Made by a program: the position numbers and the translations under genes. Shown piece after piece: positions 1,192 through 17,046 of a DNA stretch of 17,539 bases (its first letter is position 1; each line of letters begins with the position of its first letter). Origin of the DNA: Erysipelotrichaceae bacterium. Lineage in GTDB: Bacteria; Bacillota_I; Bacilli_A; Erysipelotrichales; Erysipelotrichaceae. The stretch spans positions 1 to 17,539 of the forward strand of contig JAUNJW010000008.1 in NCBI GenBank assembly GCA_030533035.1, in the 5' to 3' direction. Under the pieces are notes generated by a model, which did no database searches, was not told the origin of the DNA, and saw only the letters and a list, made by a program, of their open reading frames with translations.

Positions 1192-1229
1192 AAAAAAAAG
1201 CGGAAAAGCGCACGTTATATGCACTTTTC
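1192..1229 (-). terminator. Intrinsic terminator of the his operon
   Basis: On the minus strand a 10-bp stem (GAAAAGTGCA / TGCGCTTTTC, one G-U pair, 7-base loop) begins inside the hisE stop codon. It is followed after CGC by eight T residues at 1199-1192. The position immediately after hisE marks the end of the ten-gene his transcript. Confidence 0.8.
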
Positions 1230-1551
1230 ACACTTTTGTGACAGGTTTTCTTTCTGCTTTGAGATTATGCTGTTTTTCTGAACGGCGGATCATTTCCTTT
1301 TCGACGTCCTCAAGAGTGATCCCTTTTTCCACCATCAGCACGATCAGATGGTAGGCCAGGTCATTGAGTTCGCCGATCAGATCCTCGTTGGACTGGCTCA
1401 GCGCGGCGACGACAACCTCGGTTGTCTCCTCACCGATCTTCTTGAGGATCTTGTCGAGTCCCTTATTGTAAAGATAGGTTGTATAGCTGCCCTCCTCCGG
1501 GTTCAGTTTCCGGTCGAGGGCTGTTTCATAAAGGTTTTTCAGTTCATTCAT
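1228..1551 (-). CDS. hisE: Phosphoribosyl-ATP pyrophosphatase HisE
   Basis: 107 residues, normal for a free-standing HisE. It hydrolyses phosphoribosyl-ATP to phosphoribosyl-AMP and pyrophosphate, step 2 of histidine synthesis, in the cytoplasm. The MazG-like all-alpha metal site is visible: [11 protein letters not shown] at residues 40-50 and [10 protein letters not shown] at 60-69 supply the expected acidic residues. It is the last gene of the operon. Its ATG overlaps the hisI stop by 4 bases (ATGA), with GGAGAGG of the hisI 3' end as ribosome site. Unlike enterobacteria, HisI and HisE are separate polypeptides here. The stop codon is embedded in the operon terminator. Confidence 0.96.
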
Positions 1552-1877
1552 AGGATTTCCTCTCCTTCGAGATTCCGGTAGAAGCAGCTGTATTTGCCGG
1601 TGTGGCAGGCTGCCGTGTCCTGGTCCACTTTCAGCAGGATGGTATCCTCGTCACAGTCGACCAGGATTTCCCTGACATGCTGGTAATGGCCGCTTGTCTC
1701 ACCCTTGACCCAGAGTTCGCCGCGGCTTCTTGACCAATACGTCGCCAGACCTGTCTCAACGGTTTTCTTCAGGCTTTCCTCGTTCATGTACGCAAGCATG
1801 AGCACCTGCAGGGTGGTATTGTCCTGGACAATGCAGGGCACCAGGCCGCCGCCCTTTTCAAAATCGATTCTGATCAT
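1548..1877 (-). CDS. hisI: Phosphoribosyl-AMP cyclohydrolase HisI
   Basis: 109 residues, a monofunctional cyclohydrolase opening the adenine ring of phosphoribosyl-AMP (step 3). The family metal site is intact: [14 protein letters not shown] gives Asp74, Cys75, Asp76 and Asp78 for Mg/Zn binding, and [10 protein letters not shown] gives Cys91 and Cys98. [17 protein letters not shown] (residues 48-64) is the usual substrate-binding stretch. It starts within the hisF stop (ATGA overlap) and ends in the hisE start (ATGA), so its translation is probably coupled on both sides. An AAAGGAA sequence inside the hisF 3' end is the likely ribosome site. Confidence 0.97.
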
Positions 1878-2635
1878 AAGCGCACCGGAATTCCTTTCTC
1901 TTTCAGGTAATTCTTGACGTCGCCGACAGTCAGTTCGCCATAGTGGAACAGACTCGCCGCCAAAGCAGCGTCGGCAGCGTCCTGGGCAAAGACCTCATGG
2001 AAGTGCTCCAGACTGCCGCAGCCTCCGGAAGCGATGACCGGCACGTGGACTTCTTTTCTGACCGCTTTGAGAAACGGAAGATCGAAGCCGTTTTTGGTGC
2101 CGTCGGCGTCCATGGACGTCAGCAGGATTTCCCCTGCCCCTTTGGCGACGCCTTCTTTGATCCACTCAACCGCGTCGATGCCGGTGTCGATCCGGCCGCC
2201 GTTGATGACGACATTCCAGCCGTCCTTTGTTTCGCGCATCCGGCCGTCAACCGCCAGGACAATGCACTGGGAGCCGAAAAGCGAGGCGGACTGGGAAATC
2301 AGATCAGGATTCCTGACCGCGGCGCTGTTGAGGGAAACCTTGTCAGCCCCGGCCCGAAGAACAGCCCGGATTTCATCGGCCGTGCGGATGCCGCCGCCGA
2401 TAGTGAACGGCATAAAGACCTGTTCAGCGACTTTCTCGACAATGTGGACCATTGTTTCCCGGTGTTCATGGGTGGCGGTGATATCAAGAAAGACGAGTTC
2501 ATCCGCGCCCTGCTCATAGTACTGTTTCGCAAGTTCTGCCGGATCGCCGACTTCCCTGAGGCCGACGAAGTTGATGCCTTTGACTACCCTGCCGTCCTTT
2601 ACGTCAAGGCAGGGAATAATGCGCCGGGTGATCAT
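1874..2635 (-). CDS. hisF: Imidazole glycerol phosphate synthase cyclase subunit HisF
   Basis: 253 residues, standard length. It is the (beta/alpha)8 cyclase half of IGP synthase, which joins PRFAR with ammonia from HisH to give imidazole glycerol phosphate and AICAR. The two catalytic aspartates are present: Asp11 in [13 protein letters not shown] and Asp130 in IVLAVDGR. Phosphate-binding loops FTIGGGIR (78-85) and VIASGGCGS near the C-terminus are also clear. It overlaps hisA by 4 bases upstream and hisI by 4 bases downstream. A GGGAGG ribosome site lies inside the last hisA codons. Confidence 0.98.
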
Positions 2636-3354
2636 AAGGCCTCCCGGGCGGCCGCGATGGCTTCATTCAGGTCAATGTCGCCTGTGTAGATGGCCTTGCC
2701 GATAATGGCGCCATAGAGACCGAGGGCTTTCAGGGCTCTGATGTCATCAACGGATCGGATGCCGCCGGAAGCGGTGATATCACAGGAGACAGCTTCCTTC
2801 AGGTTTGCCAGCATTTCCAGATTCGGCCCGGACAGCGTGCCGTCCCTTGAAATGTCGGTGAAGATAATATTCTTCACCCCGAGTTCTTCGAGGTGCTTCG
2901 CGAAGTCAATGTAATAGTACTTTGATGACTGCAGCCAGCCGTCGGAGCAGGCATAGCCGCCGCGGCAGTCCATGCCGACAGCGATTCTGGCACCATAGCG
3001 GGCAAGGGCTTCTTTGAGAAGCTCTTCGTTGTTGATGGCGGCCGTGCCGAGAATGACCCGGCTGACGCCGTTTTCAATGTACCAGGAGATGTCGTCCATG
3101 GTCCTTATGCCGCCGCCGCATTCGACCGGCACATCCAGTTTCTGCGCGGCTTCCGCGATCAGCTTCGCGTTTTCACGCTTTCCGCTTTTGGCGCCGTCGA
3201 GGTCCACCATATGGATGTATCCGGCTTTTGCCTCAGCGAAGGTTTCCGCTGTTTTCAGGACCGAGTCCGCCACAATCTCGCTGCGGCTGTAATCGCCCTG
3301 GTACAGACGCACCGGGCGGCCGGAAATCATATCGATTGCAGGTAAGATAATCAT
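2632..3354 (-). CDS. hisA: ProFAR isomerase HisA
   Basis: 240 residues, a TIM-barrel isomerase converting ProFAR to PRFAR (step 4). The catalytic pair is Asp8 ([17 protein letters not shown]) and Asp129 (AVGMDCRGG). The phosphate-binding loops ECGGGIRT (78-85) and TASGGIRS mirror those of HisF, its ancient paralogue. FTDISRDGT (165-173) is the third typical segment. Nothing suggests the dual PriA (Trp/His) form, and it sits in an all-his operon. The start is set by the ATGA overlap with hisH and a GGAGG site in the last hisH codons. Confidence 0.97.
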
Positions 3355-3959
3355 TCAAACACCTCCGCGAAATATCTGAGAATCTTCAGGCCGTCTTCAG
3401 CGCTTTTTTCCGGATGGAACTGGGTGCCCATGACATGCGGTCCAATGACAAGTCCGCTGACCCGGATCTCGCCGTACATTGAGTAGCCGGCAAGGGCTTC
3501 GTCATCATAATCCACGGCGCTGTAGGAATGGACATAGTAAACATACGGATGTTCGCTCAGGATTCCTTTCAGGGGATGGTCATGATTCCATTCCAGTTCG
3601 TTCCAGCCGATTTCGGGAACAGGCAGGTCAGTGATCATTTTCGTGACTCTGCCTTTGAGGAAGCCAAGGCCTTCATTGAGGCCGTTTTCCTCGCTGACTT
3701 CGAACAGCATCTGCATTCCCAGGCAGATGCCGAGAAGCGGCTTGCCCGAGGCGACTTCATCCTTCATGAAGACATCAAGTTTTCTGTCCCTGACGTTCTT
3801 CATGCAGTCGCCGAAAGCCCCTACCCCCGGCAGGATCAGTTTGTCACAGCTGTGCAGAACGGCCGGGTCCGCGGAGATCACACATTCCTGTCCGATCGCC
3901 TTCAGCGCGTTTTCCACGCTGCGCAGGTTGCCCATGCCGTAATCGATGATGCCGATCAT
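3351..3959 (-). CDS. hisH: Imidazole glycerol phosphate synthase glutaminase subunit HisH
   Basis: 202 residues, a class I (triad) glutamine amidotransferase that feeds ammonia to HisF. The nucleophile is Cys79 in LLGICLGMQMLF, and the His182/Glu184 pair is in GTQFHPEKS. The oxyanion strand LPGVGAFGDCM (43-53) and the N-terminal IIDYGMGNLRSV are family hallmarks. It overlaps hisB upstream and hisA downstream by 4 bases each. The HisF partner lies two genes downstream. Confidence 0.97.
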   Translation of the reverse strand: MIGIIDYGMGNLRSVENALKAIGQECVISADPAVLHSCDKLILPGVGAFGDCMKNVRDRKLDVFMKDEVASGKPLLGICLGMQMLFEVSEENGLNEGLGFLKGRVTKMITDLPVPEIGWNELEWNHDHPLKGILSEHPYVYYVHSYSAVDYDDEALAGYSMYGEIRVSGLVIGPHVMGTQFHPEKSAEDGLKILRYFAEVFE

Positions 3960-4537
3960 TCAAGCATTCCTTTCGTGCTCATCACCCGGTCGGAGCTGAC
4001 TGTCACCGCGTTTTTCAGCGCGTGGCCGAGGCCCTTGAAAATCGCTTCCGCCTTATGGTGGTCATTATTGCCATAGCGCAGGTTGACATGAAGCGTGATG
4101 CCGGCATTGAAGGCGAAGGCGCGCATGAATTCCTCCACCATTTCCGTTGCCATCATGCCGATCTGGTCACGGCTGAATTCACAGTTGAAGACAAGATACG
4201 GACGGCCGCTGATATCAAGGGAGATCTCCGCCAGGCTCTCGTCCATCGGCAGCAGGAAGAAGCCGTATCTTTCAATGCCGGTTCTTTCCCCCAGCGCTTT
4301 TTTGAACGCCTGGCCGAGGGCAATCCCGCAGTCTTCAATGGTGTGGTGATCATCCACGTCAAGATCGCCGTCGGCTTCCAGGACGAGGTCAAATCCGCCA
4401 TGGAAGGCAAACAGGTTCATCATGTGGTCAAAGAAGCCGATACCGGTTGAAACCTGGCAATGGCCGCTGCCGTCGAGGTTCAGCTGGCAGTGGATGTCTG
4501 TTTCGGCAGTCTGCCGGTCAATAACTGCAGATCTCAT
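3956..4537 (-). CDS. hisB: Imidazoleglycerol-phosphate dehydratase HisB (monofunctional)
   Basis: 193 residues, containing only the dehydratase module. It removes water from imidazole glycerol phosphate to give imidazole acetol phosphate. The manganese-binding motifs are DDHHTIEDCGIALGQ (62-76; His64, His65) and NNDHHKAEAIFKGLGHAL (158-174; His160, His161). The protein ends in the usual STKGML. There is no N-terminal HAD phosphatase domain like that of E. coli HisB, so histidinol phosphatase must be a separate gene, and none is seen here. It overlaps hisC and hisH by 4 bases. GAGGAGG within the last HisC codons is an excellent ribosome site. Confidence 0.97.
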   Translation of the reverse strand: MRSAVIDRQTAETDIHCQLNLDGSGHCQVSTGIGFFDHMMNLFAFHGGFDLVLEADGDLDVDDHHTIEDCGIALGQAFKKALGERTGIERYGFFLLPMDESLAEISLDISGRPYLVFNCEFSRDQIGMMATEMVEEFMRAFAFNAGITLHVNLRYGNNDHHKAEAIFKGLGHALKNAVTVSSDRVMSTKGMLE

Positions 4538-5562
4538 AATTCCTCCTCAAACGTTCTGATTGCTTTCAGTACAAGTTCATTTTCCTGCGGTGTGCCGACC
4601 GTGATGCGGAATCTGTCGGTGCCGGCATAGTCGCGGATGGTGATATTGTTCTGTTTCAGTATATCAAGAAGCTGCTGCTTGCAGGGACTTGAGCAGTACA
4701 GGAAATTGGCTTCAGAGGGATAAACTTTCAGTTTTCTGCATGCCTGCATGGCATCGTAAAGGACACGCCTCTGGGCCTTGATGGCACTGATCTGTTCCTG
4801 ATATTCCTGTGCGTGCCTCAGGACGACGCTCGCGATTTTCATCGAGACGCTGTTGAGGGCATACGGGACAAATGACTGTTTCAGTGCCTTCATGTTCTTT
4901 TCGGAAGAAATCAGGAAACCGGTTCTGATTGCCGCCAGGCCATAGGCCTTCGAGAGCGTCCTTGTCACATAAAGATTGCCATACTCATCTGACAAAGAAA
5001 GACTGCCGGGCGTGTCGGCGAAGTCAATATAAGCTTCGTCGATCAGAACAGGGATTTCCGGGAACGCCTCCGCGATTTTGCGGATTTCTTCCGGCGGCAG
5101 GCAGTTGCCTGTCGGATTGTTGGGATTGGAGAAAAGAATCATGCCGGCTTTGCTGTCTCTGGCAAAAGCGATGAAATCTTCTGTTCTGAAACTGCCGTCA
5201 TCCGCCGTTTTGAATTTGACGACGTCAGCCTCATAGCCGGAGGCGTAATAGTCATACATTGAGAAATCCGGATTCAGTGTGCACAGGACCTTCCCTTTGC
5301 CGAGGAATGTGCCGATCATGTAGCCGAGCATCTGGTCGGAGCCGTTGCCGGCGAGAAGCCGGTCAGGACTGACGCCGATCAGGTTTCCGTAGGCAGCCAG
5401 CAGTTCCGTTTCATCGCTGTCGGGATAGCGGTTGAGTTCAACCGAGGCGACAGCTTCCGTGATTTCCTGGCGGACCGCATCGGAAAGCGGGTATGAATTT
5501 TCGTTGGCATTCAGCAGGATGCCGTCCGTTTTTGCCGGCGCGTAAGTCTGGATTGTCTTCAT
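4534..5562 (-). CDS. hisC: Histidinol-phosphate aminotransferase HisC
   Basis: 342 residues, a fold-type I PLP enzyme moving an amino group from glutamate to imidazole acetol phosphate. Visible motifs: the ALLNANENSYPL-like N-terminal substrate segment (16-26), SNPNNPTGN at 145-153, LIDEAYIDF with the PLP-nitrogen aspartate Asp175, and TLSKAYGLAAIRTG with Schiff-base Lys205. The length is slightly short of the roughly 350-residue norm, but nothing appears missing. It overlaps hisD upstream and hisB downstream with ATGA. The operon context favours HisC over a general aromatic aminotransferase, although such enzymes can have relaxed specificity. Confidence 0.95.
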   Translation of the reverse strand: MKTIQTYAPAKTDGILLNANENSYPLSDAVRQEITEAVASVELNRYPDSDETELLAAYGNLIGVSPDRLLAGNGSDQMLGYMIGTFLGKGKVLCTLNPDFSMYDYYASGYEADVVKFKTADDGSFRTEDFIAFARDSKAGMILFSNPNNPTGNCLPPEEIRKIAEAFPEIPVLIDEAYIDFADTPGSLSLSDEYGNLYVTRTLSKAYGLAAIRTGFLISSEKNMKALKQSFVPYALNSVSMKIASVVLRHAQEYQEQISAIKAQRRVLYDAMQACRKLKVYPSEANFLYCSSPCKQQLLDILKQNNITIRDYAGTDRFRITVGTPQENELVLKAIRTFEEEL

Positions 5563-6842
5563 TTCTTCATCCTCACTCTGGCTGCGTTGGCGTGTGCCCG
5601 CAGCTGTTCTTCCTCGGCCATGGAAACGATGTGGTCTCCATAGTTGTCAAGTGCTTCCTTTGTGTAGTACAGGAAAGATGACTTCTTGATGAAGGCGTCA
5701 ACACCGAGGGCGCTTGAGAAGCGGGCGGTGCCGCTGGTCGGCAGGACATGGTTGGTGCCGCCGAAGTAGTCGCCGATCGACTCGCAGGTATAGTAGCCAA
5801 GGAATACAGAACCAGCGTTTCTGACCCGGTTGAGATAAGGCATCGGATCTGCCGTCATCAGCTCCAGGTGTTCAGGCGCGATGGCGTTGGCGAAATCAAT
5901 GCATTCTTCGACGGAACCGCAGACAATCGCGGTGCCGTAGTCGCGCAGGGAGCTTTCAACGATTTCCTTTTTGGGGAGTCTGTCTGTCTGGATCCGCAGC
6001 TGCTGATTCACCTCAGCCAGCAGGTCTTCGCCGGTTGTCAGCAGGATGGCGCTTGCCATCGGGTCGTGTTCCGCCTGTGAGAGCAGGTCGGCAGCGACAT
6101 ATTCAGGATCCGCTCCTTCGTCGGCGATGACGAGGATTTCGCTCGGCCCGGCGATCATATCGATGTCAACCTTGCCGTAGACCAGTTTCTTGGCGGCCGC
6201 GACATAGATGTTGCCGGGACCGACAATCTTGTCGACAGCCGGAATCGATTCAGTTCCGTAAGCCAGTGCCGCCACTGCCTGGGCGCCGCCGATCTTGTAG
6301 ATTTCATCGACGCCGGCAAGCCTTGCCGCAAAGGCAATGTTGGGATTGATCGTACCCTCTTTGTTGGGCGGGGTGACCATGACGATTCTTCTGACCCCTG
6401 CCACCTTGGCGGGAACCGCGTTCATCAGAACGGAGCTGGGATACTGGGCCCGGCCGCCGGGAACATAGATTCCGACGGAATCCAGGGGGATGACACGCTG
6501 GCCCAGGAAGATGCCGAATTCTTTCTGGAGAATATAGGAATTCTGGATCTGGGCGCGGTGGAAGAACTCAATGTTTTCCTTTGCCTTTTTCATGGATTCC
6601 ATGAAGAAAGCGTCGCACTTTGAAGCGGCCTCATCGATTTCCTCTTCGGAAACACGGAAGTTCTCAATCCGGATGCCGTCAAATTTCTCCGTATACTCCC
6701 TTGCGGCCTGATCGCCGTCACGGCGGATTGCCGCGATGATGTCATTCGCCCTGACAAGAATGTCAGAGGAGATTTCCTGGGAGCGTGAATCAAGATACTC
6801 ACGCAGCTGCTTTGTGGCAGTTCTGTCAATTCTCTTCAGCAT
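5559..6842 (-). CDS. hisD: Histidinol dehydrogenase HisD
   Basis: 427 residues, standard length. It oxidises histidinol to histidine in two NAD-dependent steps. By comparison with the E. coli enzyme, the zinc ligands are Gln256 and His259 (SQAEHDPMA), Asp358 (GDYFGG) and His417. The catalytic pair is Glu324-His325 (APEHLELM). GIYVPGGRAQYPSSVLMN (124-141) and VGPGNIYV are signature segments. Its start overlaps the end of hisG by 17 bases, the only junction in the operon that is not the 4-base ATGA type. GGAAGGAA in the 3' end of hisG is the likely ribosome site. Confidence 0.97.
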   Translation of the reverse strand: MLKRIDRTATKQLREYLDSRSQEISSDILVRANDIIAAIRRDGDQAAREYTEKFDGIRIENFRVSEEEIDEAASKCDAFFMESMKKAKENIEFFHRAQIQNSYILQKEFGIFLGQRVIPLDSVGIYVPGGRAQYPSSVLMNAVPAKVAGVRRIVMVTPPNKEGTINPNIAFAARLAGVDEIYKIGGAQAVAALAYGTESIPAVDKIVGPGNIYVAAAKKLVYGKVDIDMIAGPSEILVIADEGADPEYVAADLLSQAEHDPMASAILLTTGEDLLAEVNQQLRIQTDRLPKKEIVESSLRDYGTAIVCGSVEECIDFANAIAPEHLELMTADPMPYLNRVRNAGSVFLGYYTCESIGDYFGGTNHVLPTSGTARFSSALGVDAFIKKSSFLYYTKEALDNYGDHIVSMAEEEQLRAHANAARVRMKK

Positions 6843-7467
6843 GTTTCACCATTCCTTCCAGATCACTGATCAGTGACATGATTTCATCCTGCTTCATCTT
6901 GAAGCTTGCCTTGTTTACAATCACGCGGGCTGAAAGCTCTGCCGCGGTGTCATAGACAACCAGTCCGTTCTCTTTCAGCGTGGCGCCGGTTTCCATGATG
7001 TCGACGATGCCGTCCACCAGGCCGAGCACCGGAGCCAGCTCTACCGAGCCGTCAATCTTGATGACCTCGATATCCTTGCCTTTGGAGTGGAAATAATCCA
7101 GGGCGACATTGGGATATTTGGAGCCGATCCGGATATGGCCCGTTTTTTCCAGCGGGTTATGTCCCGCCAGTCCGGCGACGATGAATTTGCAGCGGCCGAT
7201 CCGAAGATCAAGCATTTCATAATAATCCTTGCCGCCTTCCATGAGGGTGTCCTTGCCGACAACCCCGACGTCGGCGACGCCGTGCTCCACATATGTGATG
7301 CAGTCATTGGCTTTGACAAGGAAATAGCGGATATCCTTCTTTGTGTCAGGGAAGACGAGCGCCCTCCCCTTGTTGTTCAGCTTTTCCGTACCATAGCCGC
7401 ACTGTTCAAGCATTTCAACCGTCGCCTTTTCCAGGCGTCCTTTTGTCAATGCGATGGAGAGACTCAT
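6826..7467 (-). CDS. hisG: ATP phosphoribosyltransferase catalytic subunit HisG, short form
   Basis: 213 residues, the short HisG type that lacks the C-terminal regulatory domain and requires HisZ. It condenses ATP and PRPP, the committed and feedback-controlled step. The N-terminal IALTKGRLEK (5-14) and the PRPP-binding loop VDGIVDIMETGATLKENGL (151-169) are clear. ADVGVVGKDTLME (65-77) is also typical. HisZ is encoded immediately upstream with an ATGA overlap, which matches a stoichiometric HisG-HisZ hetero-octamer as described for the family. The hisD start lies inside its last codons. Confidence 0.97.
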   Translation of the reverse strand: MSLSIALTKGRLEKATVEMLEQCGYGTEKLNNKGRALVFPDTKKDIRYFLVKANDCITYVEHGVADVGVVGKDTLMEGGKDYYEMLDLRIGRCKFIVAGLAGHNPLEKTGHIRIGSKYPNVALDYFHSKGKDIEVIKIDGSVELAPVLGLVDGIVDIMETGATLKENGLVVYDTAAELSARVIVNKASFKMKQDEIMSLISDLEGMVKHAEEN

Positions 7468-8567
7468 TTCACCACCTCCATGGTATCTTTCTGCCAGGGA
7501 ATCATTTCCACCGGCGCTTCTTTTCTCAGCTCACGTGCCTTTACCATGGCTTCTGCCTGCCTGTTTTCAGGATAGTACAACTTCCATGGCGAGAACGCCG
7601 GCTTCTTTGCGGTTTCAAGGAGATAATCCAGCTTGACGCCGAAGCCGATGGCCGGCATGTCCCGGCCCAGTTTTTTCAGCAGCGAGTCATACCTGCCGCC
7701 GGAAAGAACGCTGGTGCCGATGCCCTGGACGTAGCCTTCAAAAATGATTCCGGTGTAGTAATCCAGATGCGGCACCTTGCCGAGGTCGAATGTCACCCTG
7801 CCCTCATAGCCAAGCTCATTCAGTGTTGCCCGCAGGTTGATCAGACTTTCCACTTCCTTTTTCAGTTCTTCTGCAAAACTGACGTCCATTGCTTTTTCCA
7901 GGGCCCTGCGGCCGCACAGCAGCGGCAGGTTTGCGAAGAAGTCTGCCTGTTCCACGGTAAGATTCAGGCCGCTGACAAAGGCTTTGAGCGCCGGCATTTC
8001 CTTGCGGTCCACCAGATCCGCGAGAACAGCGGCGTTCCGGGATGAGAGCCCGGCTGCCCTGATGGCGGTTCTGAAGAACTCGCTGCTGCCGATTTCCAGG
8101 GTGTATTCATAATCACCCAGGGCGGCCATGACATCGAGGGCACAGCAGAGCACCTCCAGGTCGCAGCGGCTGTCAAGGCCGATCAGCTCCACACCGCAGT
8201 CAGTGACGACATTCCGTTTGCCGGCGAAGCTCTGCCTGACCTTGTAGACACTCGAGCTGTAGGAGAAGCGCAGCGGCACTTCATCCGGCGAAAACCGGCT
8301 GACAGAGACCCGTGCGATCGGCAGGGTCATGTCAGTTCTCAGGGTCAGGATCTGGCCGCTTTCATCAACGAACTTGTACAGGGTCTCTTCCTTCAGGGAA
8401 GTGAATGTATTCTGGTATGTTGAATAGAATTCAATCAGCGGCGTCTCCACCGGCCTGTAGCCGTAGGAGGCATAGACAGCGCTGATTTTCTCCCTGAGGT
8501 TTTCTTTGGCAAGACATTCATCCGCCAGCAGGTCCCGCATGCCGCCGGGAATCTGAATCTGTGTCAT
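7464..8567 (-). CDS. hisZ: ATP phosphoribosyltransferase regulatory subunit HisZ
   Basis: 367 residues, a histidyl-tRNA synthetase-like protein without tRNA charging activity. In this family it activates short HisG and carries the histidine feedback site. Motif 2-like RTDMTLPIARV (77-87), the LDYYTGIIFEGY segment (268-279) and motif 3-like SGGRYDSLLKKLG (289-301) are present. Only a short C-terminal tail replaces the HisRS anticodon domain. I chose ATG at 8567. An upstream in-frame GTG at 8573 is possible, but AAGGAG at 8580-8575 sits 7 bases before the ATG, ideal for it. First gene of the operon, directly behind the T-box terminator. HisS itself is excluded by length (about 420 residues normally) and context. 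Confidence 0.94.
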   Translation of the reverse strand: MTQIQIPGGMRDLLADECLAKENLREKISAVYASYGYRPVETPLIEFYSTYQNTFTSLKEETLYKFVDESGQILTLRTDMTLPIARVSVSRFSPDEVPLRFSYSSSVYKVRQSFAGKRNVVTDCGVELIGLDSRCDLEVLCCALDVMAALGDYEYTLEIGSSEFFRTAIRAAGLSSRNAAVLADLVDRKEMPALKAFVSGLNLTVEQADFFANLPLLCGRRALEKAMDVSFAEELKKEVESLINLRATLNELGYEGRVTFDLGKVPHLDYYTGIIFEGYVQGIGTSVLSGGRYDSLLKKLGRDMPAIGFGVKLDYLLETAKKPAFSPWKLYYPENRQAEAMVKARELRKEAPVEMIPWQKDTMEVVK

Positions 8568-8583
8568 AAACACTCTCCTTTAA

Positions 8584-8922: not shown

Positions 8923-10200
8923 TCATTTTGCCGCGCCCTGGCGCATGGCAGCGAAAATCACAAGGCCGATCGCAAGGGCCGAAGTGAGTGAAGCGGCGAT
9001 GACCAGGCCGTCCGCGGTCTTTTTGATTTTCCCGGTGCCCTCTGTTCTGGCAGGGGCAGCCTTCGGTTTGCCGGTGAGTTCAATCAGCGGGTATTCTTCA
9101 TCCGTGATCCGGACCGCGGTGTGTTCAACCGCCACGGGATCCTCGGCATATCCCTGGGCCGGTTTCAGAATCTTTACCGTGTAGGTTTCCCCTTCCGCAA
9201 CCTTGTCACCGGCGACCAGATGGTCTTCTTCCGCGCTGATCCAGGCGTCGACGGGATTGCCTCTGCTGTCGCAGACCGCCAGCGACGCGCCGGCCAGATA
9301 GCGGTGATCCGGACTGCTCAGACGGACCCGGAATCCTGTTTTGTTTTTTCCGGAAGGAGCCGCGGGGGCTTTCTTTTCCGGCTGTGAAATTGTATGTGTG
9401 ACATAGACCGCCGGAGCGCTGTAAACGGGGATCTGCGCTTCCGCCTGCACTTCTGTCTCAATTGAGCCGTCCTCTTCTTCCGGAAAGTCATCCTCATCCG
9501 CCGTCAGGGGCGCTGCAGGCAGATGAATCGGCCAGTATCCGCTGTCCTGACCATTGTCTTCAAATACATACCCTTCGGTTTCCGCCAGCGGCAGAAAGAA
9601 TTCCAGCGGCCTGTCCGTTCCCTCCATAAATGCCGGGATTTCAATCAGGATGTCCTCCGGCGGCTGGTAACCGGGCGCTTCTTCCTTCTGGACCAGAAGA
9701 TACGCCTGGCCGGCCTGCAGCAGGACCTGCTCCCCATTCTCATCCTTTACAAGACCCTGCGGATCCGGTTCAAACTCAAAGACGGCTTCATCCTGTTCGT
9801 TTCTTAGCTCAAGAACACCGCCGCCGGCAAACACCTCCATCTCCTGCACGTGCTGGAAGATCCTGATTTCAAAGGGATTCAGGGCAATCGTCTCCTCCAG
9901 GTCCTTCCGGGTCATTTCCGCCGGCAGCCAGATCTCCCGCGACGGCATCCATCCGGCCGGCACATCGCAGAGGGAGATAAGATATTCATCGCCCTTTTCC
10001 AGTTCAATCTCCTGCGTGCTTTCTTCAGGAACAACTTCACTTTTTGTGCTGTCGGTCAGATTGATGACCCTGACGGAAGGAAGCGGATTTTCCTCAGGGC
10101 CTTCAATACGCAGCTTCAGGCAGACATGGCCGCTGCTCTGATACAGGGGCAGGACGCCAAGCTGGCATGACAGCGCCAGCAGAGCGGCCAGATGCCTCAT
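8923..10200 (-). CDS. Membrane-anchored surface protein with prealbumin-like (SpaA/Cna-B type) repeats
   Basis: 425 residues. The N-terminus (MRH then a hydrophobic run to about residue 20) is a signal peptide or signal anchor. Three beta-rich segments at about 26-110, 112-210 and 288-378 resemble prealbumin-like SpaA/Cna-B modules, with typical phrases such as LRNEQDEAV, EEAPGYQPPE and KPAQGYAED. An acidic Pro/Ala-rich linker runs from 232 to 285. Residues about 397-418 form one C-terminal membrane helix followed by a short RQGAAK tail. There is no LPXTG before it, so sortase attachment is not supported and membrane anchoring is more likely. The start overlaps the SSB-like stop by 4 bases, with GGAG 8 bases upstream, implying co-translation. 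Its function is unknown; adhesion or envelope structure are guesses. I see no good terminator between its stop and the his promoter. Confidence 0.75.
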   Translation of the reverse strand: MRHLAALLALSCQLGVLPLYQSSGHVCLKLRIEGPEENPLPSVRVINLTDSTKSEVVPEESTQEIELEKGDEYLISLCDVPAGWMPSREIWLPAEMTRKDLEETIALNPFEIRIFQHVQEMEVFAGGGVLELRNEQDEAVFEFEPDPQGLVKDENGEQVLLQAGQAYLLVQKEEAPGYQPPEDILIEIPAFMEGTDRPLEFFLPLAETEGYVFEDNGQDSGYWPIHLPAAPLTADEDDFPEEEDGSIETEVQAEAQIPVYSAPAVYVTHTISQPEKKAPAAPSGKNKTGFRVRLSSPDHRYLAGASLAVCDSRGNPVDAWISAEEDHLVAGDKVAEGETYTVKILKPAQGYAEDPVAVEHTAVRITDEEYPLIELTGKPKAAPARTEGTGKIKKTADGLVIAASLTSALAIGLVIFAAMRQGAAK

Positions 10201-12575: not shown

Positions 12576-13820
12576 TTACTGCTTCAGTTTTGGCAGTGTG
12601 CTGCCGCCGAACGGCATTGCCAGAATGGTTTTCCTGCCGCCCTCTTCCGCCAGTTTCAGCGCTTCCTCAACGGACGCTGCCGGTTTCAGGATTGTCTTTG
12701 CGACGATGGCGGGATCCATGTCGGACACAAGATAAATGTCTGCCTTTTCACGGACCATGGCAATGGCGGCTGCCTTATGGGCGCCGAGGATGAAATTCCT
12801 CTGAATCTCCTCCACCATGTCATGGGGCTCTGTATATTTCAGCATCCACTCTTCAAAGTGCGATTCGCCGAATCCTTCCGCGCAGCTGCCGCAGAGAATC
12901 ACGGCGCCGCCCGCACGGACCGCGTGCTTGGCGTTGTCGAGCGCTTTCTGGGTCTGGTAGAGATTGAGATCCTTCGGCGCGCCGCCCTGGGAGACGATGA
13001 CGATATCCGCCTGCTCATCAATCTCACGGCGGTAATAGGAATCCAGGTAGGCACATGCTTTGCGGTGGGCCGCAGTGACGTCGCCTGCTTCAGCGCAGAC
13101 AATTTCTTTCCTTGTATTCAGGACAACGTTGACAATGAAGTCAACGCCGACTTTCGCGGCGGCTTCTTCAATGTCCTCGCGGACCGGATTGCCTTCCAGA
13201 CGGCCGGCACAGGAGTCCGGCTTCACCATATGGCGGTGGTTGTACTGGATGGCGTCACGGGTGGAAACGCCCGGCATGATTGCCTTGGCGCCGCCGGAGT
13301 AACCGGCGAAGTAATGGTATTCCACATTGCCGATGCAGATTCTTCTGTCAGCGGCCATGACCCTTCTGTCAATGTCAATGGGTGTGCCGCGCTCTGTGGT
13401 GCCCACATGGAAAGTGTCATCAGGATCCGAATCAACGCATGTGATTTCGCTGTAGGCCTTTTCGCCCGCCAGGTGAATCATTTCCGCTTCCGTCTGATGG
13501 CGGTGGGAGCCAAGGCCGAAGACGAGCGTGATGTTTTCCTTCTTTACACCGGCGCGGTACAGTTCATCCAGGACAGACGGCAGGATTTTCCAAGTCGGAC
13601 ACGGTCTGGTGATATCGCTTGTGACAATCGCGACGGTTTCATCCGCGCCGACGATTTCAGACAGCTTCCTGCTGCCGACGGGATTGGCCAGCGCTTTTCT
13701 GACAAGCGCCTCCTCATCCAGTCCCTCGGGCAGATCATCGGGCTCCAGGATTCCCAGAACCCTTTCATCATCCACACTGACTGTTTCAGTGCGGGAACCG
13801 ATTCTGAATGACAGTTCCAT
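12576..13820 (-). CDS. larA: LarA-family nickel-pincer-dependent 2-hydroxyacid racemase
   Basis: 414 residues, close to Lactobacillus plantarum LarA (about 425). The family catalyses racemisation of 2-hydroxyacids using a covalently bound nickel pincer nucleotide. Residues aligning by eye with known LarA positions are present: Arg72 in DITRPCP (R75), His106 in GLGSHRH (H108), His169 in EYHYFAGYSGGAKA (H174), Lys179 (K184, the cofactor-attachment lysine) and His195 (H200). Cofactor-making larB, larC and larE are not in the window. The gene begins one base after the serA stop, so it is probably translationally coupled to a D-2-hydroxyacid dehydrogenase-like enzyme. Many LarA homologues act on acids other than lactate, so lactate specificity is not assured. 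A terminator follows directly. Confidence 0.88.
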   Translation of the reverse strand: MELSFRIGSRTETVSVDDERVLGILEPDDLPEGLDEEALVRKALANPVGSRKLSEIVGADETVAIVTSDITRPCPTWKILPSVLDELYRAGVKKENITLVFGLGSHRHQTEAEMIHLAGEKAYSEITCVDSDPDDTFHVGTTERGTPIDIDRRVMAADRRICIGNVEYHYFAGYSGGAKAIMPGVSTRDAIQYNHRHMVKPDSCAGRLEGNPVREDIEEAAAKVGVDFIVNVVLNTRKEIVCAEAGDVTAAHRKACAYLDSYYRREIDEQADIVIVSQGGAPKDLNLYQTQKALDNAKHAVRAGGAVILCGSCAEGFGESHFEEWMLKYTEPHDMVEEIQRNFILGAHKAAAIAMVREKADIYLVSDMDPAIVAKTILKPAASVEEALKLAEEGGRKTILAMPFGGSTLPKLKQ

Positions 13821-13821
13821 A

Positions 13822-14997
13822 TCAGCTGTTCCACTTGAGGACTCTGACCCTGACCATGCCTCTGACTTCGTTCAGTTCACGGACATTGTTCTCATCAACC
13901 TCAGAGTTGACGTCAAACAGGGAATACGCGTATTCACCGCTGGACTTGTTGGTCATGTTTTCAATGTTGATGCCGTCCTCGCCGAGTACGGCTGTGATCG
14001 CCGCCAGGACGCCGGGCAGATTCTTGTGGATCAGGCAGATTCTCGCCTTGCCGCTGCGTTCGAGAACGACTGTCGGCAGGTTGACGGAATTCTTGATATT
14101 GCCGTATTTGAGATAATCGTTGATTTCCTGGGCTGCCATTCTCGCGCAGTTGGCTTCGGACTCATAGGTGGTTCCGCCAAGGTGCGGCGTCAGGATGACA
14201 TTCTCGGTTTCGATCAGACGGCGGGTCGGGAAATCGGAGACGAACTTGGCGACTTTTCCTGATTTCAGGCCTTCGATAATTGCGTCTTCCTCAACAACCG
14301 CGTCACGGGCGTAGTTGATGATGCGGACGCCGTTTTTCATCTTGGCGATGGCGTCGGCATTGATCATGTATCTTGTGTCAGCCTTGAGCGGTACGTGCAG
14401 TGTGATGTAATCACTGTTTCTCAGCAGGTCGTCAAGGTTGTCGACACGGTCAACGTGGCGGCTGACATGCCATGCCGCGTCAACGGAAAGATACGGGTCG
14501 TAGCCGAGTACCTTCATACCGAGGGAAAGCGCGATGTTGGCGACTGCGGAACCGACGTTGCCGGTGCCGATGACGCCGAGTGTCTTGCCTTCGTATTCAG
14601 GACCGGCAAACTGCTTCTTGATCTTCTCCATCCGCTGTTCAACCGGGCCTTCTGAATCGTCATATGAATAAACCCATTTCATGGCGTTGAAAATATCACG
14701 TCCGGCCATGGAAATACCGAACAGGAAAAGCTCCTTGACGCCGTTGGCGTTTCCGCCCGGCGTATTGAAAACCACGATTCCCTTTTCGCTGCATTCCTCG
14801 AGCGGGATTGTGTTGACGCCGATGCCGGCCCTGCCGATGCACTTGAGCTCCTTGTTGAAAGGATAGTTATGCATGTCAGAGGCTCTGACAAAGATGGCGT
14901 CGGGATTTTTCACGTCATCACCGACTGTATACTCGGAAGGCTTGAGTATCTCAAAACATGTATCGGATATGTTATTCAGTGTTTTCACTCTATACAT
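13822..14997 (-). CDS. serA: D-3-phosphoglycerate dehydrogenase-like protein with ACT domain
   Basis: 391 residues from ATG at 14997, which has AAGGAA 6 bases upstream and matches the normal N-terminus. A longer frame from 15093 would pass through the promoter and is rejected. Domains: substrate-binding part (1-100 and 275-310), NAD Rossmann domain with GVIGTGNVGSAVA (141-153) and Asp167, and a C-terminal ACT domain (about 318-391) for likely serine feedback. Arg231 (NYARDA) and His272 (TPHLGGTTYESE) are the expected catalytic residues. The usual DVF-x-x-EP acid motif is replaced by SDFPTRRL, a feature I associate with the short clostridial-type PGDH group. It converts 3-phosphoglycerate to phosphohydroxypyruvate with NAD, starting serine synthesis. 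No serC or serB is adjacent; the coupled partner is larA. Confidence 0.88.
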   Translation of the reverse strand: MYRVKTLNNISDTCFEILKPSEYTVGDDVKNPDAIFVRASDMHNYPFNKELKCIGRAGIGVNTIPLEECSEKGIVVFNTPGGNANGVKELFLFGISMAGRDIFNAMKWVYSYDDSEGPVEQRMEKIKKQFAGPEYEGKTLGVIGTGNVGSAVANIALSLGMKVLGYDPYLSVDAAWHVSRHVDRVDNLDDLLRNSDYITLHVPLKADTRYMINADAIAKMKNGVRIINYARDAVVEEDAIIEGLKSGKVAKFVSDFPTRRLIETENVILTPHLGGTTYESEANCARMAAQEINDYLKYGNIKNSVNLPTVVLERSGKARICLIHKNLPGVLAAITAVLGEDGINIENMTNKSSGEYAYSLFDVNSEVDENNVRELNEVRGMVRVRVLKWNS

Positions 14998-15036
14998 ACT
15001 GGGTTCCTTCTTCCTCCGCCGTGTGCGGTTCGTCAC

Positions 15037-15067
15037 ATTATAGCACAATGATTGAAAATAGCGACAA
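15037..15067 (-). promoter_or_regulatory. Promoter of the serA-larA operon
   Basis: A perfect TATAAT at 15042-15037 preceded by TGC gives an extended -10 element. The -35 is weak (TTGTCG at 15067-15062, 19-base spacer), as is common with extended -10 promoters. The -10 is 39 bases before the serA start. Confidence 0.7.
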
Positions 15068-15092
15068 TCAGTTTCACATGTTGTTTCATTCA

Positions 15093-15111
15093 TTTTCAGA
15101 TAATCTGAAAA
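15093..15111 (-). repeat. Palindrome over the stop codon of the HD-methyltransferase gene
   Basis: TTTTCAGA-TTA-TCTGAAAA, an 8-bp perfect inverted repeat with a 3-base loop, covers the stop codon. No T-tract follows on the minus strand, so it is not a canonical terminator; it could stabilise the mRNA 3' end. Confidence 0.4.
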
Positions 15112-16883
15112 ATAAAGAACTTGAGATAGGATGTTTCATCCATCAGCCAGAGGATCGGATGATCCGCGTTCTGCTGGGTCACCGACACCTGGCGCAGAAT
15201 CACGCCGGCCTCGGCAGCGGCCTCTTTCAGCATCTGCTCAAACAGGGCTGTTTCCATATATCTTGAACAGGAACAGGTTGCCAGGTACCCGCCGCCGGCC
15301 AGCAGCTCCATGGCCCGCCGGTTGATCCGCTTGTATCCGTTGTAGGCCTTGAGAACGGTTTTCCTGGATTTGGTAAATGCCGGCGGATCAAGAATGATAA
15401 AGTCAAACTGCCCTTTCTCCAGACTGTCCAGATACTCAAACACATCCGCCTGAACAAAGCGCATTCTGTTTTCCAGATGGTTCAGCTTCGCGTTGGCAAG
15501 TCCCTGCTCAAGAGCCGCGGCCGACACGTCGACAGCCGTGACTTCCTCAGCTTCACCCATTGCCGCGTTGAGGGCAAAGCCGCCAGTATGGGTGAAGCAG
15601 TCAAGAACCTTATGGCCATACGCCATTTTCCTGACCAGAAGGCGGTTGGACTTCTGATCCAGGAAATAGCCTGTCTTCTGGCCGTTGATGTAATCGACAT
15701 ACAGCTTCAGGCCGTTTTCCTCAATCACAGCCGGGCATTGGGCCGATGTTCCGTTCCAGAAACCGGTGTACTGCCCGAGGCCTTCCTTGGCGCGGGAAGG
15801 AATATCATTTCTTTCATAGACAGCTTTGACAGGAATGCCGTCCCCTGAAATCTCCTCCAGGAGGATTTCATAGATCATGTCCCTGATTTTCTCAAAGCCC
15901 ATGTTGGAGATCTGGGTGACAAGAACGTCATTGTAGCGGTCGGCGACAAGACCCGGCAGCCGGTCGGCTTCGGAGAAGATCATCCGGCAGCACCCGATAT
16001 TATTTCTCTCAACTGTGCGCCGGAAGGATACAGCTTCCCGGATTCTAAGGCGGAAGAATTCGCGGTCAATCAGCTCATTTTCATCACGGCTCAGGATCCT
16101 GACTGTCACATGCGAGCATGAAGAATAGAAACCCCTGGCGATGAACGTGCCATCCTGGCCAAGGATGCAGACAACACCGCCGTCCTGACAGTCAGCCGAT
16201 GCGAAAACCGCATTGTTGGCATACATCCACATCTGCCCTTTTTCCAGGAACTGCTGTCCCTGGCGGCTGATGATGACATGCGGCTCACTGCAATGCCGGC
16301 TGAATCTTTCTTCCATTTCCCGGCGGACAGAGCTCAGATATTCAAATTCCCGGCGGTAGCGCTCAACCCGCCTGTAATCTTTCTGGCTGGGTTCAGCGAT
16401 TCTGGAAAGGTCGCTGTTATGGGTCAGGTCGGCCAGCTTGACACATACCGCGTCATAATTCTTCGCAATCCTGGCAATATAATCCTCCCGCGTCTCATTT
16501 TCGCGGTGGGTCATCGAATCGACGCAGGCCAGCACCCTTTCGCTCATGCCGAGGTTTTTCAGATCCTCATAAGTGACTTCTGTGTCTTCGATCACGTCAT
16601 GCAGCAAAGCGCCAATAACGGCCGCGAAGGAGCCTCTTGTCAGGGAAGACACCTTCACGGGATGTGAAATGTAATCTCTGCCTGCCTTGTCAGTCTGGCC
16701 TTTATGGGCTCTGCGCGCTGTTTCCAGCGCACACAGATACATTTCCGCCTCTTCATCCGGGATGATTTCATACTGCGGCGGCAGCGGTGCGTCAGTCCAT
16801 ACGCCCGCCAGCGGATCCAGTTTCTGGTTTTCCGGCTCAGTGCGGTAAATGGCATTGCCGTTTCCGTGATCATAACAATACAT
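15096..16883 (-). CDS. Fusion of a Rel/SpoT-like HD hydrolase domain with an RlmI-type rRNA cytosine methyltransferase
   Basis: 595 residues from ATG at 16883, with a strong AAGGAGG site 5 bases upstream. A longer frame to 17000 runs into the tRNA gene and is rejected. Residues about 45-170 match the HD domain of (p)ppGpp hydrolases: RRAHKGQ (His60), YISHP (His74), LLHDVIEDTE (His95, Asp96, Glu99, Asp100) and KLADLTHNSDL (Asp152). Residues about 203-285 look like a PUA domain (VIISRQGQQFLEKGQMWMY). Residues about 300-595 are a class I SAM methyltransferase like RlmI, with VLDCFTHTGGFALNAA (427-441), ILDPPAFTKSR (497-507) and catalytic-type Cys538 (CSCS). RlmI makes m5C1962 in E. coli 23S rRNA. 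The joining segment (170-203) is helical and basic. I see no frame break. No clear promoter lies between it and the tRNA. Confidence 0.88.
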   Translation of the reverse strand: MYCYDHGNGNAIYRTEPENQKLDPLAGVWTDAPLPPQYEIIPDEEAEMYLCALETARRAHKGQTDKAGRDYISHPVKVSSLTRGSFAAVIGALLHDVIEDTEVTYEDLKNLGMSERVLACVDSMTHRENETREDYIARIAKNYDAVCVKLADLTHNSDLSRIAEPSQKDYRRVERYRREFEYLSSVRREMEERFSRHCSEPHVIISRQGQQFLEKGQMWMYANNAVFASADCQDGGVVCILGQDGTFIARGFYSSCSHVTVRILSRDENELIDREFFRLRIREAVSFRRTVERNNIGCCRMIFSEADRLPGLVADRYNDVLVTQISNMGFEKIRDMIYEILLEEISGDGIPVKAVYERNDIPSRAKEGLGQYTGFWNGTSAQCPAVIEENGLKLYVDYINGQKTGYFLDQKSNRLLVRKMAYGHKVLDCFTHTGGFALNAAMGEAEEVTAVDVSAAALEQGLANAKLNHLENRMRFVQADVFEYLDSLEKGQFDFIILDPPAFTKSRKTVLKAYNGYKRINRRAMELLAGGGYLATCSCSRYMETALFEQMLKEAAAEAGVILRQVSVTQQNADHPILWLMDETSYLKFFIFQII

Positions 16884-16908
16884 GCCGGCCTCCTTCCGTT
16901 TTCCTTTG

Positions 16909-16959: not shown

Positions 16960-17046
16960 TGGTGCCCGTGGCCGGACTCGAACCGGCACGGTGTCGCCAC
17001 CGGGAGATTTTGAGTCTCCTACGTCTACCAATTCCATCACACGGGC
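16960..17046 (-). tRNA. tRNA-Leu (anticodon CAA)
   Basis: An 87-base class II tRNA with the CCA end encoded. The acceptor stem is GCCCGTG / CACGGGC. The D arm contains GGAATTGGTAGAC. The anticodon stem GGAGA / TCTCC encloses loop CTCAAAA, with anticodon CAA at 17012-17010. A long variable arm (CGGTGGCGACACCG) is present, and the T arm is GCCGG-TTCGAGT-CCGGC. It reads UUG leucine codons. Confidence 0.97.

Follow-up and report, generated by a model that had tools for sequence, protein, structure and literature searches.

The fused frame and its surroundings

The window analysed here is the whole 17,539-nucleotide stretch of contig JAUNJW010000008.1 from an Erysipelotrichaceae bacterium (GCA_030533035.1), whose genome is a draft of 407 contigs, 83.95% complete with 3.58% contamination, and is the single genome found to carry the fusion described below. 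On the minus strand an open reading frame of 595 codons runs from an ATG at 16883 to a stop codon at 15096–15098 with zero internal stops (Table 1). The preliminary description had claimed one uninterrupted frame linking an HD domain to PUA and methyltransferase modules, and this was borne out, with HD_4 at the N-terminus (residues 52–133, 28.2 bits against a Pfam cut-off of 27.2) and the PUA and RlmI-type methyltransferase domains at the C-terminus, PUA_3 and Methyltrans_SAM both scoring above their own Pfam cut-offs. Judging by the aligned sequences, the active-site residues appear to be kept in both halves, as had also been proposed. The N-terminal extension (residues 1–42; 16758–16883) has no Pfam match, is predicted with high confidence by AlphaFold2 to form strands between residues 2 and 41, and has aligned counterparts in five relatives with adjacent, unfused genes as well as in the genomes G060, G022, G007 and G067.

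Table 1. Positions of the features of the fused gene and its neighbours in the window, and of a second gene pair elsewhere in the same genome.
Feature	Position	Strand	Basis
Fused gene, 595 codons + stop	15096..16883	−	Open reading frame
GGAAGGAGG, probable ribosome-binding site, 5 bases 5′ of the ATG	16889..16897	−	Sequence reading
Beta-rich N-terminal extension, residues 1–42, not covered by the 7smg match	16758..16883	−	AlphaFold2 strands
HD hydrolase domain, residues 43–190, nearest to the (p)ppApp hydrolase 7smg	16314..16757	−	Sequence, profile, predicted fold
Junction, residues 191–202, site of the HD stop and methyltransferase start in relatives	16278..16313	−	
PUA_3 domain, residues 203–266	16086..16277	−	Pfam
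Methyltrans_SAM domain, residues 385–556, with DPPAF and TCSCS motifs	15216..15731	−	Pfam, alignment
tRNA-Leu (CAA), upstream of the fused gene	16960..17046	−	Same place in five relatives
2-Hydroxyacid dehydrogenase with ACT domain, downstream of the fused gene	13822..15093	−	Conserved synteny
RsmF-type gene and RelA/SpoT-type synthetase-domain gene	L094 673–3377 (G000:C262)		

Elsewhere in the window a compact minus-strand run of histidine-biosynthesis genes, most of which overlap by a few bases, occupies 1228–8573; the names in this run were given by eye, the first gene, histidyl-tRNA-synthetase-like, being the only one verified. The 425-residue protein encoded at 8923–10200 has no Pfam match at E≤1e-5 and by eye resembles a membrane-anchored surface protein, with the anchor at its C-terminus. 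A LarA (lactate-racemase-like) gene at 12576–13820 lies directly behind the 2-hydroxyacid dehydrogenase gene, an arrangement seen by eye in one related genome (G014) as well.

Affinities of the two halves

The HD half had been assigned to the Rel/SpoT type from its motifs, and the motifs HKGQ, ISHP, HDVIEDTE and KLADLTHN are indeed present, but the Rel/SpoT affinity did not hold since the domain is closest to PDB 7smg, a (p)ppApp hydrolase of Bacteroides caccae. This structure outranked Rel and Mesh1 in all four comparisons, which covered sequence, profile and predicted fold, and the reading of the domain as a canonical ppGpp hydrolase is lowered for that reason. The modelling suggested in the preliminary description gave a confident, 7smg-like HD domain (AlphaFold2 pLDDT 97.2; 7smg as closest structure, rmsd 1.0 over 141 residues, the match beginning at residue 44 of the HD model) but a poor full-length model (pLDDT 70.6, pTM 0.45, methyltransferase parts <50). 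The latter was folded from an alignment (A6) that was clean but shallow, and no packing claims are drawn from it; two other alignments (A2 and A5) were dropped as they aligned HD rows, in part or in full, to the methyltransferase half.

The window HD domain shares with 7smg the Q-x-D and N-x-D positions, and differs from that free 149-residue chain in its beta N-terminal extension and its fusion to a methyltransferase. Long Rel/SpoT proteins and Mesh1 have the HD fold and the metal and catalytic residues in common with the window domain, at a similarity lower than that of 7smg; the Rel chains shown carry Arg at two positions where the window has Asp at both, and long Rel/SpoT proteins contain a RelA_SpoT synthetase domain in the chain, for which the fused protein has no Pfam match. 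Eight residues (H60, H74, H95, D96, E99, D100, D152 and N156) are invariant in 26 HD rows, window included, and it is our assumption which of them individually serve in metal binding and which in catalysis. An HD_4 domain that carries the superfamily's metal and catalytic residues is what would be expected of a small alarmone hydrolase, but the chain is not a hydrolase alone, the domain being fused here and encoded by a separate gene in five relatives. Because of the fusion only the HD domain, and not the whole chain, is likened to a (p)ppApp hydrolase. The residues governing base specificity in such hydrolases are described as not evident (PMC7644958).

We infer that 7smg is Aph1, which is described as the product of an immunity gene adjoining the synthetase toxin Apk2 (PMC12226406; PMC11699363). 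Whereas Aph1 has this adjoining synthetase toxin gene, the contig of the window has no synthetase gene: the RelA_SpoT matches in the genome lie on two other contigs (C131 and C262) and none on that of the fused gene. A toxin-immunity role was therefore rejected as the main reading.

The assignment of the other half to PUA plus SAM methyltransferase modules of the RlmI type was confirmed by the Pfam domains, by motifs and by near end-to-end alignment with both PH1915 (PDB 2as0, E 2.5e-79) and E. coli YccW/RlmI (PDB 3c0k, E 5.3e-70). Both proteins have the PUA and methyltransferase architecture and the DPP and SCS motifs in common with the window protein, which differs in adding an N-terminal HD domain; DPPAF and TCSCS of the window align at the DPPKF and SCS positions of E. 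coli YccW. One Cys of this half is presumably catalytic, and which one is our assumption. As the half fell below the cut-offs of the NCBIfam RlmI equivalogs (282 of 575 bits for NF053718 and 265.7 of 712 for NF011707), it is called RlmI-type and not RlmI, the m5C1962 methyltransferase of 23S rRNA. A second RlmI-type paralogue in the genome (G000:C137; L002 1088–2403) is interrupted by a run of N that probably marks an assembly gap. The PADLOC matches were one to mad2, in its methyltransferase part (residues 401–572, E 9.9e-26), and three weak ones to MTase_II; since they touch nothing beyond the general methyltransferase domain, an antiphage role was rejected.

A probable ancestral gene pair and the likely origin of the fusion

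The preliminary description had named separate genes in related genomes, together with a frame break in reads, as a finding that would count against its reading, and in five of 70 genomes of the genus the two halves are indeed encoded by separate, overlapping genes. These are RUG12097 (G075; locus L024), NK3D112 (G043; L025, Erysipelotrichaceae), S24M_St_67 (G066; L026), RUG10685 (G072; L029) and G014 (L066), the genome and locus labels of the first four being equated through their contig coordinates; the two open reading frames overlap by 8 bases in the first of these and by 4 in each of the other four. In all five the order is an EF-G-like gene, tRNA-Leu (CAA), the HD gene, the methyltransferase gene and a dehydrogenase gene, the EF-G-like and dehydrogenase families having been verified at the RUG12097 locus and in the window. 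Identity to the RUG12097 genes at the same synteny is 59% for the HD half and 76% for the methyltransferase half, so the fused frame is not a product of chance.

Recurrence of the fusion among related genomes, proposed as a check, was not seen: it occurs in one of the 70 genus genomes, that of the window itself. Among the matches listed from 272 genomes of the family there was no other full-length match to the fused protein, and in the class sample none besides its own among the 16 of 395 genomes that matched at E≤1e-120, a threshold that excludes distant methyltransferases. With the HD domain as query the fusion was not seen in the order (82 of 315 genomes matching) or in the phylum sample (19 of 392). 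In one library, it is not named in the titles and opening parts of abstracts of the RlmI, HD-domain, alarmone and ppGpp literature, and we found there no work that pairs an alarmone hydrolase with an rRNA methyltransferase or RsmF with a RelA SpoT domain; the word methyltransferase is absent from the main text of a survey of RSH proteins (PMC3153485).

In the HD tree the window groups with RUG12097 (support 98/91) and the six genomes fall together (99/96), some other rows being long-branched, and in the methyltransferase tree the corresponding values are 100/99 and 96/80, such that in both trees the sister of the window is a genome with separate genes. Sister methyltransferases in two further genomes (G021 and G070) lie in another context with no HD neighbour. 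Between the window and RUG12097, dN is 0.38 and dS 1.85 for the HD half, and dN 0.18 and dS 1.20 for the methyltransferase half; as dS is near saturation and the estimates probably span mostly the time before the fusion, the dN/dS values indicate that both halves have been kept, not that the fusion has been selected.

We consider it reasonably probable that the frame is a lineage-private fusion of an older overlapping gene pair, and that it most likely represents two independent enzymes in one chain. Such a young fusion is the best-supported origin because of its single occurrence, the separate syntenic genes in the relatives and the position of RUG12097 as sister in both trees; most simply, to judge from these comparisons, the pair would have formed once and fused once. 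The ancestor of the six related species would have carried a (p)ppApp-type hydrolase gene and, directly behind it, a gene for an RlmI-type methyltransferase whose start overlapped the hydrolase stop; in the window lineage changes at the junction would have erased this stop and this start alike, so that one ribosome makes one chain.

That the fusion is an assembly or sequencing error, two overlapping genes having been merged by an error in base length at the junction, is in our estimation unlikely. The overlap of 4 or 8 bases in five relatives means that a small length change would be enough for a merger, and the draft state of the assembly, one other contig of which contains a run of N, is in keeping with such an error. 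In RUG12097 the HD homology continues in frame to its final residues, where the HD stop overlaps the ATG of the methyltransferase; the window junction has neither the HD stop nor the ATG of the relatives, and the frame reads through, with in-frame ATG codons nearby at M190 and then at M218 and M220. In order to model simple errors, 420 single-base indels were introduced in silico over 84 bases at the junction, and 253 of these created an HD stop near it. A stop together with any in-frame start was obtained for 142 if M190 is allowed, which leaves room for an error, but a stop together with a methyltransferase start where the relatives have theirs for only four, so a simple error is possible but would seldom restore the layout of the relatives. 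The missing ATG also argues against an error, as do the remaining genes of the window, which appear uninterrupted by eye on their own sequence, and the split of the C137 paralogue, which falls at a run of N.

The frames might also have merged with no functional fusion, the methyltransferase being made mostly from an internal start and the long form being a by-product; we give this low probability. M190 is an in-frame ATG just 5′ of the junction and so a candidate start, but it has no clear ribosome-binding site by eye, and the next ATG codons, M218 and M220, fall inside the PUA domain.

Possible functions and a second pairing in the genus

For the favoured reading of two enzymes in one chain, the HD half would, in a metal-dependent manner, remove the 3′-pyrophosphate from nucleotides of the (p)ppApp kind, and possibly from (p)ppGpp, and in the C-terminal half the PUA domain would bind rRNA and a catalytic Cys would make m5C on 23S rRNA. 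Fusion would fix the ratio of hydrolase to methyltransferase and bring the hydrolase to assembling ribosomes with PUA as the tether, the two sites most likely being catalytically independent on their separate domains.

A signalling link, the interpretation originally offered, goes further: the HD domain would sense or clear alarmones at the pre-50S particle and control methylation, or the two sites would regulate each other. The adjacency of the two genes in five relatives, besides the fusion here, is consistent with this, as is the pairing within the same genus of a RelA/SpoT-type synthetase-domain gene with an RsmF-type methyltransferase gene. According to one study, the nucleotide messenger c-di-GMP inhibits E. 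coli RlmI, for which residues R64, R103, G114 and K201 are named (PMC11894153), and all four are identical in the window if the chain positions of 3c0k equal these residue numbers. On the other hand their counterparts may be conserved for catalysis, the same study reports that ppGpp did not compete for the RlmI site (PMC11894153), and c-di-GMP is itself improbable as the signal since no GGDEF match was found in the genome of the window, which is 84% complete. The sister methyltransferases with no HD neighbour, and the occurrence of the same HD type fused to unrelated enzymes elsewhere, also weigh against a link, which we regard as distinctly unlikely.

These other fusions came from longer open frames chosen among the order and phylum HD queries, of which seven were run through Pfam, three (G242, G046 and G007) were read only, and G244, G274 and others were left out. 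Five of the seven have a partner family, namely PmbA/TldD (G114), amidohydrolase (G255), NUDIX (G235), microbial PARG (G045) and GNAT (G021), although in the GNAT fusion HD_4 scores 25.3 bits, below 27.2; no partner family was found by Pfam in G304 and G507. The five loci (L102, L103, L104, L105 and L081) are from single genomes with frames as assembled. The HD domain joined to the amidohydrolase is Rel-like and carries QYRK, so Rel-type HD fusions exist too. On these sequences the HD domain seems to be readily fused, which weakens the special meaning of any one fusion.

An alternative substrate for the HD half, some other 3′-(pyro)phosphorylated molecule such as PAPS, NADPH or an RNA 3′ end, is given little credence here. 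In PMC9765508, XccSAH is reported to accept (p)ppGpp, pppApp and NADPH and some small alarmone hydrolases to act on pyrophosphorylated tRNA, a promiscuity that would allow such a role; an RNA substrate would fit the fusion to an RNA-binding protein, and among relatives of the window HD there are fusions to NUDIX and PARG-type domains. Against this, the nearest solved relative of the domain is named a (p)ppApp hydrolase.

Also encoded in the genome of the window are, on C131, a long frame of the Rel type and, on C262, a RelA_SpoT-domain protein (43 bits) of 455 residues that begins 8 bases behind an RsmF-type gene. The product of the latter scores 274.9 bits against NF041567, below the cut-off of 690, and 220.3 against TIGR00446, above the cut-off of 210.45. 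By eye, the motifs of the synthetase domain are partly altered relative to those we take to be typical. Proteins of this type were matched in 54 of the 70 genus genomes, and in the 30 best-scoring of these, own genome included, the RsmF-type gene lies beside the synthetase-domain gene on the same strand at every locus (L115–L144), with a gap of approximately −7 to 24 bases; at L131 only the last 41 residues of the RsmF-type gene are on the contig. In the phylum sample the synthetase-domain protein was found in 25 of 392 genomes, and an RsmF-type gene adjoins in eight of 23 further loci, two of the eight being from the same genus; L153 and L155 cover less sequence than the other loci, and absence of the RsmF-type gene is less sure there. 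As in this group of Erysipelotrichaceae a hydrolase is tied to an RlmI-type enzyme, once by fusion, and a synthetase-domain protein is the conserved neighbour of an RsmF-type enzyme, both being ribosomal m5C methyltransferases by type, a reversible cycle of 3′-pyrophosphorylation that gates ribosome assembly, and that may act on nucleotides or RNA 3′ ends, can be conceived, but we hold it to be highly improbable.

What bacterial alarmone hydrolases do apart from counteracting toxins is described as uncharacterised (PMC9765508), and for this reason their partners are informative. The neighbourhood of synthetase-domain and RsmF-type genes is perhaps a better lead in this respect than the HD–RlmI-type fusion. 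If real, the fusion would naturally tether the breakdown of alarmones to ribosome modification, and the unfused, overlapping copies in five relatives provide a ready comparison.
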